This document shows, in pieces, positions 10,396-45,518 of a stretch of 63,639 bases of DNA. Under the pieces are notes generated by a model. It ran no database searches and was not told the origin of the DNA. It worked only from the letters and a program-made list of their open reading frames with translations. Position 1 is the stretch's first letter, and the number at the start of each line of letters is the position of its first letter. This DNA comes from Desulfobulbaceae bacterium. GTDB taxonomy: Bacteria; Desulfobacterota; Desulfobulbia; Desulfobulbales; Desulfurivibrionaceae. The stretch spans positions 1 to 63,639 of the forward strand of contig SJBG01000010.1 of NCBI GenBank assembly GCA_004332195.1, in the 5' to 3' direction. The position numbers were made by a program, and so were the translations under genes.

Positions 10396-10540
10396 CAGGT
10401 AGGTCTTCTGACTCCCGGCTCATCCTCCTTCCGCGTCTTCCCATCCTGAAAAATCGGATAGTGACATATTGCGGAATTTGTCCCCGGTTACAGCGGCGGG
10501 CCCGTCCCCGATTTGCACGGGGTTCCCTTTTAAGCTCAAC
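10396..10540 (-). promoter_or_regulatory. cobalamin (AdoCbl) riboswitch
   Basis: Read on the minus strand, the conserved core appears in order: AAAAGGGAA near 10530, a GTG-containing P-stem, GCCCGC followed by CTGTAA, a variable stem, GGGAAGACGCGG, and the B12 box GAGCCGGGAGTCAGAAGACC near 10422-10403. This matches the Rfam cobalamin class. It precedes btuB-F-C-D, so the expected action is repression of uptake genes when adenosylcobalamin is plentiful. Its 5' edge is only about 5 bp from a copy of the dispersed ~141-bp repeat, so the promoter must lie at or inside that repeat. Confidence 0.93.
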
Positions 10541-10545
10541 ATAAA

Positions 10546-10686
10546 GCTACCTTGAAAAATTAGCTATTTTGTTCGAGTTTACGGCAGGCGCAAAAAAATT
10601 ACCGCAGGCATCTGGTTGATATTCCGAGGATAATTTTTTGCGCATAACGCAGAAATCGGGCGAAAGAGCAATTTTTCAAGGTGGCC
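10546..10686 (-). repeat. dispersed ~141-bp inverted-repeat element, copy 1
   Basis: Full-length copy in reverse orientation. The termini match the other copies: CTACCTTGAAAAATTAGC on the left and the complement of GGCCACCTTGAAAAATTGC on the right, with the conserved interior (GAATATCAACCA, TGCCTGCGGTAA). It occupies the divergent region between the B12 riboswitch and the beta-helix acyltransferase gene. Its 'A-end' (the end with TTTCGCCCGATTTC) points toward the acyltransferase start. Confidence 0.9.
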
Positions 10687-10911
10687 ATAAGAGCACCTGA
10701 GGCAATCAGCTTAATGGGTCGCTAGCCTAAAAACAAGTAAAAATCTCCAAAACAAATAAAAAATCCCCGGCTGAAAAATCCCCGGCCAACCGGCTCAATT
10801 TACTTGCAAAAATCTTCTCGGCAAATCATATATGCTAGGTTGTGGATTTTTTTCAACAACCCCCACCGGAGCGGTGGCAGCTTCTCCGGTCCGACCGTTA
10901 GCGAGAAATTT

Positions 10912-19233: not shown

Positions 19234-19280
19234 CGTTCTCCCCCTTGACTCGCGCAGGCTTGACGAGTAATTTGTCGGTC

Positions 19281-20693
19281 ATGGATGCGGCGATTTTCAC
19301 TCCCCAAGACCTGCGCGAAACCAACCCCTACGTTTTTGCCGTGATTCGAGAGGCTCAAAATCTCGAGGAGGCCCGGAGCCGGTTGCTGCACTTGGCTGAT
19401 CGAATGGAGCTGGGGGCGGCAGGCCAAACCGGAGCCGACTTGAGCGTCGGGGGGCACAACCGGATTCGTGATTGTGCGGTGGCGCTACGTTTGATGAGCA
19501 AGTTCAGCTCGGATGAGGCCACCGGGTTCAGCGTGACCCAGGCCTTGTGGGATATCGCCCGCCATCGGTCGCGACCGGAATTGACATCCGCCTTTTATGC
19601 TGAGATTTTTTATCTTTTCAAAGGCTTGCAGGGTCATGGCCCCCGCCGGGCCCTGGATTTTGTTCACTTAAGCCTCATTGAGGCCGGCGGCCGATCCGCC
19701 GCCCGCCAACGCTCACGCCAACTCGACGATCTATGGAGCGCGGCGGATCGCTATATGGAATCTTATCCCTGCGGGTTGGCTCAAGAGGCGCTCAAGCGTC
19801 GTCAGCGCCGTCGGGACCATATCCTCCGCGAGCTCAACGCCGACCTGAACGACTGGCACGACTGGCGCTGGCAGATCAAAAACATTGTCAGCGAGTTTGC
19901 GTTCTTGGAAAAACTGGTCAAGCTCTCCAGTATCGAGCACCAGGCGATCAAGATCGCTCGCGCAAACAAGTTGCCCTTCAGCATCACCCCTTATTACCTG
20001 GCCCTAATGGATGATGGGACCAATGATCACGGGGGCCGGAACGGGATCCAGAGCGGAGATCGGAGCCTGGGCCGGGATGCCGCTATCCGGGCCCAGGTGC
20101 TGCCGCCGCTGAGCTACGTCAAGGGCGTACTCGCCATCGAAGATCCCTCCTGCCTAGATTTTATGGGGGAAGAGGATGCTTCGCCCTTTGATCTGATCAC
20201 CCGCCACTGCCCCGCTATCTGTATCTTCAAACCCTACAACACCTGCCCCCAGATTTGCGTTTATTGCCAACGCAACTGGGAGATCGATGAGGCTATGGCC
20301 AAGGGGGCTTTCGCCGGCATGGACCGGGCTGAAGCCGCCATCAACTGGGTTCGTGAGCATCCCGCAATCCACGAAGTCTTGATCACCGGCGGCGATCCTC
20401 TGGCCATGGGCAACCAGGCCCTGGCCGCCATTCTTGATCGGGTGGCGGCCATTCCCACCGTGGAGCGAATCCGAATCGGCACCCGAACCCTGGTGACCAT
20501 GCCCATGCGTTATACCGAGGAGTTGGTCAATCTGATCGCCCGTCATCGTCAACCGGGTCGTCGGGAAGTGGCGGTGATGACCCACGTCCAGCATCCCTAC
20601 GAAATCACCCCGGAAATGGTGGAGGCGGTTAACCGTTTGCGCCTACGGGGAATTCCCGTTTACAATCAACTGGTTTACACCTTTTACATGTAA
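19281..20693 (+). pseudogene. KamA-family radical SAM protein, 3' end cut off by an IS
   Basis: Related to lysine 2,3-aminomutase. An N-terminal helical extension of about 200 residues precedes the aminomutase-like core, with the cluster-binding CPQICVYC (Cys-x3-Cys-x2-Cys), VLITGGDPLAM, RIRIGTRTLVTMP, VAVMTHVQHPYEI and VYNQLVYTFYM. Family members continue beyond this last motif for a further C-terminal domain. Here the stop codon is supplied by the first bases of the IS66 inverted repeat (ATG|TAA at 20690-20693), and no continuation is found beyond the IS at 23180. The PLP lysine region therefore appears lost. ATG 19281 (MDAAIFTPQD) is preferred over the TTG at 19245. Confidence 0.75.
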
Positions 20694-20719
20694 ATATTCG
20701 GCCAACCCCGTTAGCCCAA

Positions 20720-21574
20720 TCATGTAGTTAATATTTTTCTGAAGTTTCTGTCCAAAGGATAAAGCCAGATATCTTTGATCGGCACACTTTGCTTTCCTGA
20801 GGGGCCGAGTTTACCGCGACCTTTCGTTTTTCCAACATGGGTCCAGTTGGCGGCCTTATAGCAGGTACCGGCAAAACGCCCGGTCTCGACAAAAGTTTCC
20901 ATTAGGACCGGTGTGATCTCATACTGTTTTTGCCAGTCTTCCGGGACTTGTTTCGCTGCCAGGGACAGGATCTTTGAAGCCAGATTATTCACTTGCACCC
21001 ATGGTAAAATGAGGAATCGAGCATTATTGACAACCAGCGGCAAATGACGTTTGCGCAGGGAGTGGGTCCATCCGATATAGTGGTCGCGTGGCGCGGCCTG
21101 CCACGCCGCGGCGCCAAACCCCAAAAGCGCAATGATCTGCTGGTCGAGCATGACAAAGTACCTCAACTGAGCGCCGGGAAGCGGCGTATAACCCAGGTAA
21201 TGATATCGTCCAATGTATTCGTTCCAGAGGAGGGACGCGGACCGTTCGACCTTGCGCAATAATAACGGACCCAGGCGATGGACGGGTTGTAGGATGGGGT
21301 TCCGGGGATTAGTCGCTTTTGTGAAGCTGATGGTTCGTAATGTCGCTTTCGCTCTGCGGGGAGGAGGCAGGTCAATCAAGCCATCCGCATGCATGCGCAG
21401 CATAGCCACCCGGCAAGACATCTCCTTAAGGCCCCCATCAGCCTTGCGCCATTGCAGCATCCGGCACACCTGCCGGGACAGTTCTGCCCGGTGACACTCC
21501 GGATGGTCGGCCATCAGCTGCCGAATCCGGGTTATTTCCGTGGCGCTGAAGTCGCGTCCGCAGTAACAATTCAT
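20720..21574 (-). CDS. DruA-like protein (DUF4338) encoded inside an IS66 element
   Basis: 284 residues. The sequence has the DUF4338 features I know from Druantia protein DruA: an N-terminal helical region (RAELSRQVCRML, METS-like MSCRVAMLRMHADGLI), then SLLWNEYIGRYHYLGYTPLPGAQLRYF, GFGAAAWQAAPRDHYIGW, VVNNARFLILPWVQVNNLAS and ETFVETGRFAGTCYKAANW. Its biochemical role is unknown. It is intact, while the tnpC to which it is coupled by a 4-bp overlap is broken. Lying inside the inverted repeats, it belongs to the element. It could act in transposition or as a passenger; a defence role is not implied by homology alone. Confidence 0.8.
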   Translation of the reverse strand: MNCYCGRDFSATEITRIRQLMADHPECHRAELSRQVCRMLQWRKADGGLKEMSCRVAMLRMHADGLIDLPPPRRAKATLRTISFTKATNPRNPILQPVHRLGPLLLRKVERSASLLWNEYIGRYHYLGYTPLPGAQLRYFVMLDQQIIALLGFGAAAWQAAPRDHYIGWTHSLRKRHLPLVVNNARFLILPWVQVNNLASKILSLAAKQVPEDWQKQYEITPVLMETFVETGRFAGTCYKAANWTHVGKTKGRGKLGPSGKQSVPIKDIWLYPLDRNFRKILTT

Positions 21575-23097
21575 GAGGTGTTCCGGCGTGTGGGGGGCGG
21601 TTTGGCTAACTGTTGCCGCCGGTCCTCACTCATGCGCCACGGCAGAAAGGGGGTTAGATCTGCGGGCGCGGTTCCGCCTTGGTGGGCGCAGACAGTCAGA
21701 TATTCTTCCAACCAATGATGAGGGTTGAGCCGCCAGAGTTCGACGGTCTGAAACAGGGAGAACATCGCGGCGGCCAAATCCGCACTCCAGATACTGCCGG
21801 AACCGTAGTAGTTTTTCCGGCCTGTAACGGGATTGCGGATCGCCTTGCTGCTCTAAACTTCTGTGCCTGATGAAAAGGCATACCCTGTTGCGCCAACGGA
21901 AGAGTTTCTTGCCAGTGGGCCAAGCGTTGTTGGTTGAGATGATAAAGGGTCCCAATTGCGGCCACCCATTCCAGCGCCCATTCTCTCAAGGTGGGGAAGC
22001 TTAAGGCAATCGCTAAAAAGTCTCGACGCACATGCGCTCAGCAAAAGGCCAGAATGATGGCAGCGTTCAAGCGACAATTCTTTTTGCAGGCGCTGTAACG
22101 ATCACACACCACAATCACTTTGGGCGCCGCCAGTCCCGAAAAATGAGCCATCGGTACGGCAGCGCTCCGCGTGGGCGCTACCTGGTAGTAAATAACCTCG
22201 GGGGATCTGGTGACCAAAGAGATACCAGCGATGACCGACCTTGCCGTCAACGGCGGCAAAAACCTCCCATCGGCTTTCATCGTTATGGAATTGCGATTCG
22301 CTCATCTGGTGTTCATACCAGGCCTGTTTGAGCGGCGTAAATAACGCCGCAATTTTATAGAGACCGCCAGTTATGGTGCCCGACGCCAATGACAAGCCGT
22401 AGCCTTGTAACTCGCGTAAGATGCGGTGCAGAGGTTGGGCGTACAGGAATTTGCCTAGGAGGATATGTACCCATATTGAGGTCCCATAGGGACTTCGCGG
22501 GATGACTTTCGCTGGTGGCGGCGCAACGATAATTGCAGGACTGTTCGCCGTCGGGGGACAGGAGCAACTCTTCTGATAGCGCTGGCGATAGACCCTGCGG
22601 CGATACGCCTTGACATCAATCTCAAAAATATCCGCTTCTTCATCACCGGGAAAGGGGATGTAAGGAAGGCCACAGTGGGAACAAAAACAGGAATCCCCCT
22701 GAAGCTCATGGCGTTCTTCGACGACGGGAAGGTCCGGACGCAGAGTACGTCCGTGACCACGGCTCCCTCGTTGTTGTCCACGGGGGCGATTCGGCGCCTG
22801 TGTCGGTTGCTGTTCTACGGCTTGCGGTGTGCCGCCTGCTTCGCTCTTTTTGCCAAAGAGGCGGTGCCGGAGATCGCAAATCAGCGCTTCTTTCTGCTCA
22901 AGTTCTTCCTTGAGACGCGCTTCCCGTTTGCAAGACCGCTGATGTTGAGCTTTCCAATAATGACCTTCCCATTTAAGCCGAGTCAGCTCTTTTTGTGTGA
23001 TCGCCACCAGATTGAGTGCAGGAACCACAGGAGAGGCTCCACTCATGGGTGGCAAAGACAGAGAAGGAAATAACGAAGAGGGAAGGGAATGTTCCAT
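21571..23097 (-). pseudogene. IS66 transposase TnpC, frameshifted
   Basis: The N-terminal part reads openly from 23097: a coiled coil (TRLKWEGHYWKAQHQ to EQKEALICDLRHRLFGKKSE), a Gln/Arg-rich linker, the IS66 zinc-finger (CFCSHCGLPYIPF, CSCPP) and the start of the DDE domain (SQFHNDESRWEVF). Around 22200 it shifts frame. PEVIYYQVAPTRSAAVP to IVVCDRYSACKK follows in a second frame, then a TGA where a Trp is expected before AHVRRDFLAIAL. Another frameshift precedes the C-terminal PHHWLEEYLTVCA region that ends at 21571. The protein cannot be made intact. Confidence 0.85.
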
Positions 23098-23274
23098 GCC
23101 CCCCTATACACGAATAAGTTGAATGTGTCCCGTTGTTTTTTTATTTATTTTCAGATGACGGGGTTGGCCGAATATTTACTTCGGAGTGAAGTCAAATCAT
23201 TAGTTTCTCATGCTTTATTCACAGTGATTGATTATTACAAAACAATGGTTGATTGTTGAAAAAAGGAGCAAGCG

Positions 23275-25813: not shown

Positions 25814-25884
25814 TAGATCGACCTTTTTAATGACTTAAAGTTAAAAGTTGACTGACGATTCAGCCCGCTGGGCCTTATCTTAAA

Positions 25885-25983
25885 GGCCACTTTGAAAAAT
25901 TGCTCTTTCGCCCGATTTCTGCGTTATGTTCAAAAAATTATCCTTGGAATATCAACCATATGCCTGCGGTATTTTTTTCGCAT
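25885..25983 (+). repeat. dispersed ~141-bp inverted-repeat element, copy 2 (truncated)
   Basis: Starts GGCCACTTTGAAAAATTGCT with the conserved interior and breaks off in TTTTTTTCGCAT, exactly where the IS3 element begins. The missing ~40 bp is not found on the far side of the IS, so the insertion was accompanied or followed by a deletion. The A-end points to the small gene at 25813. Confidence 0.85.
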
Positions 25984-26017: not shown

Positions 26018-26881
26018 TCATGCCGCCATCCAGTTTCCATAAAACTTCTTCTCATAAGCAACCGGGGATAGATACCCTAGCCGTGCCTGCCTCCTCTGCC
26101 GATTGTAAAAAACTTCTATATACTCTCTGATCTCCTGCGTTGCCTCTTGTCTTGTTCTGTATTTCCTGTGATGCACAAGCTCCTGCTTAAGTGTTCCCCA
26201 AAAGCTTTCCATAGGAGCATTGTCATAACAGTTGCCTTTTCTGCTCATTGATGCGGTCATCCCAAATTGCTCAAGTAACTTGCCGTAATTGCCGGAACAA
26301 TATTGACTCCCCCTGTCAGAGTGATGTATCAGCCCCCTCGCAGGTCTCTTGGATGCCACTGCCCGAAACAATGATTCGCTGACAAGGTTCTTTGTTATTC
26401 TTTCTCCCATTGCATATCCCACTATCTCTCCGTTAAAGATGTCTTTATGTCCGGCAAGATATAGCCAGCCTTCTTCCGTAGGTATATAGGTTATATCTGT
26501 TACCCATACCTTATTCGGAGCCTCTGCTTTGAATTCTTGCTGTAATAAGTTCTCTGCCACCGGCAATGTATGCTTTGAGTCAGTTGTTGCCTTGTATTTC
26601 TTTGTCTGCTTGCAATAAAGTCCGTGCTCTCTTTTTGTCCGCTTTATGCGGCATATGCCGACATATCTGCCGCCCTCTGCCAGCTCTTTCTGAAGCTTCT
26701 CTGCTCCGCATACCCTTCTGTTTCGCTTGTGTGCTGCTTTTATCTCTATTGTCAACCGGATATCCTCCTGCTCTCTTTTAGAAGGCTTTCTGTTAATCTG
26801 TGCGTAATATCCGCTTTCTGATACCTTGAGCATTTTACATAGAGATGATGTGAAATATTTGAGCCGCATATCTTTTATCAT
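26018..26881 (-). CDS. IS3-family transposase OrfB (DDE integrase domain)
   Basis: 287 residues. It has the HTH_21-type region (RRVCGAEKLQKELAEGG) and the rve domain with catalytic acidic residues in KVWVTDITYIPTEEGW, HHSDRGSQYCS and NAPMESFWGTLKQE, then the family C-terminus YNRQRRQARLGYLSPVAYEKKF. All expected motifs are present and the frame is open. It overlaps orfA by 4 bp (ATGA). It would be made as an OrfAB fusion through programmed frameshifting, as known for IS3 elements. Confidence 0.93.
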   Translation of the reverse strand: MIKDMRLKYFTSSLCKMLKVSESGYYAQINRKPSKREQEDIRLTIEIKAAHKRNRRVCGAEKLQKELAEGGRYVGICRIKRTKREHGLYCKQTKKYKATTDSKHTLPVAENLLQQEFKAEAPNKVWVTDITYIPTEEGWLYLAGHKDIFNGEIVGYAMGERITKNLVSESLFRAVASKRPARGLIHHSDRGSQYCSGNYGKLLEQFGMTASMSRKGNCYDNAPMESFWGTLKQELVHHRKYRTRQEATQEIREYIEVFYNRQRRQARLGYLSPVAYEKKFYGNWMAA

Positions 26882-27192
26882 CGCGCACCTCTCTGCGACT
26901 CCTTTGCAAAGTACGCTGCCGCTTTTTTTAATATGTCTCGCTCCATCCTCGCTTCAGCCAACTCTTTTTTGAGCCTGTAGTTTTCTATCTCTACATCCGT
27001 CAGCGGTCTGTGGTTTTTCCCTACTTCTCCAAGTTTGCCTGCCTTACATGCCTTCATCCAGTTGCTTAAGGTTGTTGATGCCAATGACAGCCGCTTGGCC
27101 GCCTCATGCACCGACAGCCCCTCATCAATCACAAGCTTTACTGCCTCCTGCCTAAATTCCCTTGTGTACCTTCCATACGGTAACCTTTCCAT
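26878..27192 (-). CDS. IS3-family OrfA (helix-turn-helix)
   Basis: 104 residues: HTH_Tnp_1 (RYTREFRQEAVKLVIDEGL, SVHEAAKRLSLASTTLSNWM) followed by a leucine-zipper-like coiled coil (EIENYRLKKELAEARMERDILKKAA). It binds the terminal repeats and pairs with OrfB. ATG 27192 follows GGAGGTGTCAAG. Intact, in contrast to the orfA at 905-1209. Confidence 0.93.
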   Translation of the reverse strand: MERLPYGRYTREFRQEAVKLVIDEGLSVHEAAKRLSLASTTLSNWMKACKAGKLGEVGKNHRPLTDVEIENYRLKKELAEARMERDILKKAAAYFAKESQRGAR

Positions 27193-37603: not shown

Positions 37604-37788
37604 TTAGCCACTAAAGCGAAATCAAAGAGGGGGCTTTTTTTGTGATGGCCCTGTTCTTTTTGTGGGGTTGACAAACTTATCGCCCAGAACTTTCATTTTT
37701 TGATTAGCCCCGAAACTCCCCCCCCAAAAAAAAATGATGGTTTCGAGGCCATTTATCGTACCCAAGAAAGCCCGGAGAAAGTAGTAAA

Positions 37789-37962
37789 GGCCACCTTGAA
37801 AAATTAGCTATTTTGTTCGAGTTTACGGCACGTAAAAAAAATGGTTGACCGATGCCGGTCAACAAGGGAACTTATTACCGCAGGCATATGGTTGATATTC
37901 CGAGGATAATTTTTTGAGCATAACGCAGAAATCGGGCGAAAGAGCAATTTTTCAAGGTGGCC
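37789..37962 (-). repeat. dispersed inverted-repeat element, copy 3 (174 bp with insert)
   Basis: Reverse orientation. The ends and interior match the other copies, but between GTTTACGGCA and TTACCGCAGG it carries an extra ~35 bp that contains a hairpin, GTTGACC-GATGCC-GGTCAAC. The A-end points to tusA, whose ATG is 68 bp away. Confidence 0.88.
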
Positions 37963-38030
37963 TAAAATCTAACAAGATCGGTAAAATTTTTCCATCACCC
38001 ACCCATCCATGACATGAAAGGAGAAAAACT

Positions 38031-43894: not shown

Positions 43895-43946
43895 ACTTCT
43901 TCCAGGCCTCCTAACCCCTAACGCATTTGCCCGAGAATAAACCTTA

Positions 43947-44087
43947 GGCCACCTTGAAAAATTGCTCTTTCGCCCGATTTCTGCGTTATGCTCAAAAAAT
44001 TATCCTCGGAATATCAACCATATGCCTGCGGTAATTTTTTGCGCATGCCGTAAACTCGAACAAAATAGCTGATTTTTCAAGGTAGCC
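43947..44087 (+). repeat. dispersed ~141-bp inverted-repeat element, copy 4
   Basis: Full-length, from GGCCACCTTGAAAAATTGCT to ATTTTTCAAGGTAGCC. This copy can serve as the reference for the family. The A-end is 52 bp from the radA start and faces it; the other end lies near the 3' end of hemW. Confidence 0.93.
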
Positions 44088-44189
44088 CTTAATGGTTGCG
44101 TTTATAAGTAACAAAATTGATAAACGTTACCTATAAAACAGCAACCGACCCCCCCGGTTGCTGCGCTTGCAAGTTACATTTAGGCCAGG

Positions 44190-45329: not shown

Positions 45330-45375
45330 CAGAGCGCGGCCTTTTGATTTTGGGAGGCACAAGATTTTAACACAA

Positions 45376-45518
45376 GGCCACCTTGAAAAATTGCTCTTTC
45401 GCCCGATTTCTGTGTTATGCTCAAAAAATTATCCTCGGAATATCAACCATATGCCCTGCGGTAATTTTCTTGCGCATGCCCTGAACTCGAACAAAACAGC
45501 TAATTTTTCAAGGTAGCC
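45376..45518 (+). repeat. dispersed ~141-bp inverted-repeat element, copy 5
   Basis: Full length (143 bp), closely similar to copy 4 (differences such as TGTGTTATGC and an extra C in GCCCTGCGG). The A-end is 46 bp from hemW ATG 45329 and faces it; the other end adjoins the 3' end of hemC. Confidence 0.92.

Follow-up and report, generated by a model that had tools for sequence, protein, structure and literature searches.

A DruA-family gene coupled to IS66-type and other transposases encodes a protein with a predicted Mom-like GNAT fold

Insertion sequences are regarded as minimal, accessory proteins such as TnpB aside. In contig SJBG01000010.1 of a Desulfobulbaceae bacterium (assembly GCA_004332195.1), analysed here over a stretch of 63,639 nucleotides that we call the window, an IS66-type element consists of a broken transposase gene, tnpC, and an intact gene of the druA family. 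The locus raises the question of what a DruA-like protein does in a transposable element, and how it relates to the DruA of Druantia anti-phage systems. The element and the gene that it splits are composed as follows:

19245-20689, plus strand: 5′ part of a radical-SAM (kamA-like) gene, split by the element (Radical_SAM, E = 5e-8)
20690-23179: IS66-type element of 2490 bp with two genes, tnpC and druA, both on the minus strand
20690-20711, plus strand: terminal inverted repeat on the druA side, GTAAATATTCGGCCAACCCCGT, complementary at 22 of 22 positions to 23158-23179
20720-21574, minus strand: druA-like gene, 284 aa, intact (PF14236 DruA, E = 7e-51, 173.5 bits, cut-off 27)
21571-21843, minus strand: 3′ part of tnpC, following a deletion of ~83 codons and ending in an ATGA overlap with druA
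21861-22214, minus strand: middle part of tnpC in another frame, placed by alignment to the TnpC of locus L038, with an in-frame TGA at 22038-22040
22102-23097, minus strand: open 5′ part of tnpC, a 331-aa reading frame (DDE_Tnp_IS66, E = 1.6e-10) in which homology stops at a frameshift near 22200
23158-23179, minus strand: terminal inverted repeat on the tnpC side, 22 nt, partner of 20690-20711

The 22-nt arms are 100% complementary at a spacing of 2446 nt and form the top-scoring inverted pair in the 6 kb searched. The exact 22-bp end occurs five times in the 1.66-Mb genome and a reversed-pattern control not once, which, together with the near-identical full copies described below, places the repeat beyond chance. 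On the shared strand tnpC lies upstream of druA, and the tnpC stop codon TGA and the druA start codon ATG share the sequence ATGA (21571-21574). These observations confirm the anatomy proposed in the initial annotation, namely perfect 22-bp repeats around a broken tnpC and an intact DruA-like gene that overlap by ATGA. Degeneracy of the DUF4338 gene itself, which that annotation would have counted against its reading, is not seen, as the 284-aa druA carries no lesions. The element shares with the IS66 family a TnpC with the DDE_Tnp_IS66 domain (41 bits in the 5′ part, cut-off 23.1), GTAA-type terminal repeats and 8-bp target duplications, the latter recovered across contigs and also in relatives. 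It differs from the family in its conserved second gene, druA, overlapping tnpC, and in that the window copy has a dead tnpC and lacks tnpA and tnpB. We take its single-tnpC type to resemble the ISBst12 group.

We scored the damage in tnpC against the intact relative L038 (TnpC of 601 aa) and found three kinds of lesion: (i) a frameshift near 22200, at about residue 310 of L038; (ii) the TGA at 22038-22040, which replaces the Trp of an FCW motif present in L038; and (iii) a loss of ~83 codons at 21843-21861 (L038 residues 429-511), accompanied by a change of frame. The deletion takes out the conserved PMDNNRGE segment, which holds the Glu of the DDE triad. Judged from the alignment, this deletion should by itself rule out DDE activity, and it is not explicable as a simple base-call error. 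Frameshift, TGA and loss of the DDE Glu recur in all copies, none of which thus encodes the functional transposase of an IS66 element, and the window element is a non-autonomous member of the family. We searched the assembly for an autonomous partner and found no other intact IS66 transposase.

Three full-length copies of the element are present, on contigs C1, C2 (the window) and C12; they are near-identical and have the tnpC lesions in common, and contig C14 holds an end fragment only. The 8-bp flanks of the window element were traced to two of these contigs:

20682-20689, plus strand: 8 bp on the left, TTTTACAT; the other half of this target duplication is on C12, in reverse complement
23180-23187, plus strand: 8 bp on the right, TTCGGAGT; the other half of this second target duplication is on C14, in reverse complement

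The kamA side of the window element therefore pairs with C12, where the flank resumes the kamA reading frame in frame (FYISCRFEAAALRRRL...) and the remaining 3′ part of the gene is found, and the side of the MOSC gene pairs with C14. We rejected a single insertion in the window, since its left and right flanks derive from different target duplications, which is also why no duplication surrounds the element there. The window is thus chimeric or recombined across the element: either the assembler bridged identical copies and so joined the halves of two insertions, or recombination joined them. Two insertions with proper 8-bp duplications, and a third site on C1, suggest repeated transposition of an element whose tnpC is dead, barring later homogenisation of the copies. 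Because the assembly contains no intact IS66 transposase, the simplest inference is probable mobilisation of the copies in trans, by a related transposase that was lost or left unassembled and is no longer seen; homogenisation could account for the identity of the copies instead.

Some contig ends carry unusual junctions. C1 and C12 (L013, L014) share their last 81 bases, a piece of kamA (window 19688-19608) that is attached within the terminal repeat and lies ~1 kb from its proper position; an assembly-graph artefact is the probable cause. At C14:1-149 (L015), 40 bp of tnpC (window 22162-22123) are fused directly to the druA end, a junction that represents either a deletion derivative or an assembly tip.

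We collected ~110 druA loci by scanning one genome per species as well as genomes of the same order and phylum. The commonest arrangement among them is tnpC-druA with a 4-nt overlap, which occurs in Pseudomonadota, Bacillota, Acidobacteriota, Planctomycetota, Thermodesulfobacteriota and others. Ends of the form GTAA(A/G)TATTCGG and exact 8-bp duplications flank both genes in most Accumulibacter copies (L050-L066) and in L041, L044 and L083, so that the search for the same repeats and gene pair suggested at the outset recovered matching elements in several phyla. In one Accumulibacter genome, tnpC and druA align end to end in each of 28 full-length copies. In two lineages TnpC and DruA form a single reading frame (L113, 824 aa; L106, 808 aa), and in another IS66 group the gene order is tnpB-druA-tnpC (e.g., L090). 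druA is a regular, conserved gene of a two-gene IS66-type element and not accidental cargo. The proposed coupling of a DruA-family gene to tnpC is borne out by this recurrence across phyla, and the suggestion that the family behaves like a transposition or DNA-maintenance factor gains support from it and from the pairing with further transposase families described below. The literature that we searched, mostly papers available without subscription, yielded no report pairing DUF4338 with IS66; three of these papers mention DUF4338. We dropped L040 as a candidate druA-only element, as its left end was not found. The viral-classed contigs L027, L117 and L118 contain druA-tnpC IS66-type elements; a tblastn search of phage records gave no DruA-like match.

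The partners of DruA extend beyond IS66. Above NCBIfam cut-offs we identified two kinds of IS4 transposase (Tn5-like, L095; IS4_1, L112), ISKra4 (L034) and IS701 (L084), and Pfam domains reveal fusions of DruA to an ISAs1-type (L029) and a Tn5-type transposase (L124). An IS1182-like partner (L133) and unnamed reading frames beside L039 and L139 fell below the cut-offs and were left out of the partner count; an IS1380-like gene beside L087 lies largely beyond the element ends and is no partner. Relatives of DruA thus accompany at least five different transposase families in a sample that was selected by similarity to the window protein and whose proportions are not those of PF14236 as a whole. 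On a tree of 103 DruA proteins the partner family changes at least 12 times, which shows repeated exchange of partners. DruA looks like a general transposon helper rather than stray defence cargo, and its independence of transposase type would enable unrelated DDE elements to adopt it.

It had further been claimed that only druA is still under selection. When the window element is compared with its closest relatives, druA has a dN/dS of 0.08-0.14 and tnpC one of 0.13-0.26; synonymous sites are almost saturated in these comparisons, and by these ratios both genes are under purifying selection between related elements. An Arenicellales chromosome carries several copies with a broken tnpC and a full-length druA. 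In seven of these tnpC-broken copies, the ratio of synonymous to nonsynonymous private changes is 50:135 in tnpC versus 13:27 in druA (P = 0.56). We therefore abandoned selection on druA alone as a supported reading. On the same chromosome full-length druA genes outnumber full-length tnpC genes, and no copy combines an intact tnpC with a broken druA; this suggestive asymmetry has to be set against the double length of tnpC and the relatedness of the copies. Among the Arenicellales loci, L082:4223-5887 is a 1665-bp deletion derivative flanked by a 9-bp duplication; its truncated tnpC runs on in frame into an intact druA.

What the protein might do is indicated by its predicted structure. We modelled it with AlphaFold2 from 62 homologues (pLDDT 90) and obtained two parts, a helix-turn-helix-like region (residues 1-75) and a Mom-like GNAT domain (about residues 100-284). 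The N-terminal region comprises three helices and short strands (pLDDT 89) and gives weak fold matches, mostly to HTH or winged-helix proteins and none of them confident (best Z 5.3). A Foldseek search of 350,542 PDB chains with the model ranked phage Mu Mom (8bv8) first (E = 4.7e-6). VIA-align superposes DruA and Mom with Z 14.0 (168 residues, rmsd 3.8), compared with 12.6 for the runner-up entry and 11-12.6 for other GNATs. Profile-profile comparison by hhalign connects the two families at E = 4.6e-9 over 166 columns, with about 17% identity over the aligned part, and the top PHROG for DruA is the Mom-like family phrog_1384 (E = 4e-5). Compared singly with the DruA profile, Mom sequences match weakly (E 0.07 to 5e-5), and ordinary GNATs from related genomes reach 0.019 at best. 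Searches of Pfam with the window protein matched no GNAT family, and the PDB searched by sequence returned spurious weak matches only.

The profile alignment equates S124, R111, H58 and Y159 of Mom with S200, R186, H125 and Y239 of DruA. S200, R186 and H125 are invariant in 103 of 103 proteins, and Y239 is found in all 102 proteins in which the position is aligned. That S124 is essential we take from the title of entry 8bv8, which names the inactive mutant S124A. In addition to fold, profile and residues, Mom resembles DruA in being encoded by a transposing element. DruA differs in its extra N-terminal HTH-like domain of ~75 residues and in its coupling to IS transposases, and its activity is a prediction. 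An earlier paper (PMC10853773) describes a DUF4338 domain fused to DndF and classes it as GNAT; this domain belongs to the same Pfam family and is part of a phosphorothioate-linked defence protein, for which the relevant passage reports no link to transposases. A relation of DUF4338 to Mom, or its association with transposases, did not appear in the literature accessible to our search.

What the analysis shows directly is the anatomy of the element, its limits in relatives, the repeated coupling, and a Mom-like fold and residue set. Assignment of DruA to the Mom-type class of enzymes is well supported by the profile comparisons and the predicted fold; the substrate (DNA), the chemistry, the benefit and the mobilisation in trans are what we infer beyond it. 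We lean, on balance, towards DruA being a transposon-encoded, Mom-like DNA-modifying enzyme that works with the coupled transposase. Mom modifies Mu DNA and thereby protects it against restriction (PMC6483171), and by analogy we propose that DruA modifies the DNA of its element. The protein would place a GNAT-fold catalytic domain with the active-site residues of Mom behind an HTH-like N-terminal domain. Made together with the transposase, it would bind DNA and add a small group to bases of the element, and this modification may keep host nucleases from attacking transposition intermediates and elements that have just arrived, much as Mom protects Mu. Alternatively, the modification might mark the element ends and so control transposition. 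Against this proposal, the GNAT fold can also serve proteins, tRNA and small molecules, and DNA is assigned to DruA as its substrate by analogy.

DruA could accordingly be a GNAT acyltransferase whose target is tRNA or a protein, either the transposase or a nucleoid or replication protein of the host, and which tunes transposition or host cost while the DNA stays unmodified. We consider this unlikely. Many protein and small-molecule acetyltransferases share the fold at Z 11-12.6, and tight coupling or fusion would suit a modifier of the transposase; yet Mom is the best fold match and the sole GNAT-like family reached by profile, no Pfam GNAT family is matched, and the partner transposases are unrelated in sequence, which makes a shared protein substrate less natural than DNA. 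Still more doubtful is a non-catalytic, DNA-binding cofactor of the transpososome, architectural or end-binding, in a role comparable to that of the IS66 accessory protein TnpB. Such a role is consistent with the HTH-like domain and with the tnpB-druA-tnpC order of one IS66 group, but the invariance of S200, R186, H125 and Y239 across very divergent proteins points to retained catalysis.

The Mom-like reading of DruA also bears on its relationship to Druantia. PADLOC DruA1 matches the window protein with 18.5 bits (E = 2e-4) over 87 residues, and hhalign aligns transposon DruA with defence-type DruA1 proteins over 104 columns (E = 3.5e-10, 24% identity). The kinship of the two, by these alignments, is real but distant. 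Defence-type homologues, here proteins with a strong match to the PADLOC DruA1 model from seven candidate Druantia loci, belong to the same Pfam family (PF14236) and share the core of ~104 columns, but they are longer (about 380-420 aa) and stand beside HerA-like and other defence genes. They lack equivalents of R186 and S200, which align with Val/Gly, and their comparison with the Mom profile gives no match (E 0.05), so that of the two proteins transposon DruA is the nearer to Mom. With a weak DruA1 match and only tnpC and druA, without druB-druE, the element is not a Druantia type I system. Of the link to Druantia DruA drawn in the initial annotation, the shared core stands; the Mom-like S200 and R186 do not extend to the defence-type proteins. 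Druantia DruA may descend from transposon DruA, or the reverse.

That DruA is defence or addiction cargo, a Druantia-like immunity fragment that benefits the host and so preserves the element, is very improbable, for although the Pfam family and the core are common to PADLOC DruA1 proteins and DUF4338 domains fused to the defence protein DndF have been reported (PMC10853773), druB-E are absent from the two genes and 2490 bp of the element, the defence-type homologues have greater length, no S200 or R186 and no detectable likeness to Mom, and the gene is tied to transposases, through in-frame fusions too, and not to other defence genes. Matches to DUF4338/DruA in genomes are often transposon genes and not evidence of defence. 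If the favoured reading of a Mom-like, DNA-modifying DruA is true, an enzyme of DNA-modification type has been acquired repeatedly by unrelated transposases, which would open a new side of transposon biology with Mom of Mu as its parallel, and the Druantia component DruA gains a testable enzymatic ancestry. We entertain only tentatively the bolder version, in which transposons of at least five unrelated DDE families carry a mobile and exchangeable Mom-type base modifier that shields or marks their own DNA while they transpose, and Druantia DruA is a domesticated, catalytically altered descendant.

The window also contains a dispersed repeat of ~150 bp with inverted ends, GGCCACCTTGAAAAATT ... 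AATTTTTCAAGGT(A/G)GCC, which is MITE-like or REP-like:

10538-10690, 25884-25982, 37785-37966, 43941-44091, 45375-45518: ~150-bp repeat, five or more copies in the window; also present on C12

Beside one of these copies, window 26018-27192 holds an IS3-type transposase gene pair with HTH_Tnp_1 and rve domains.
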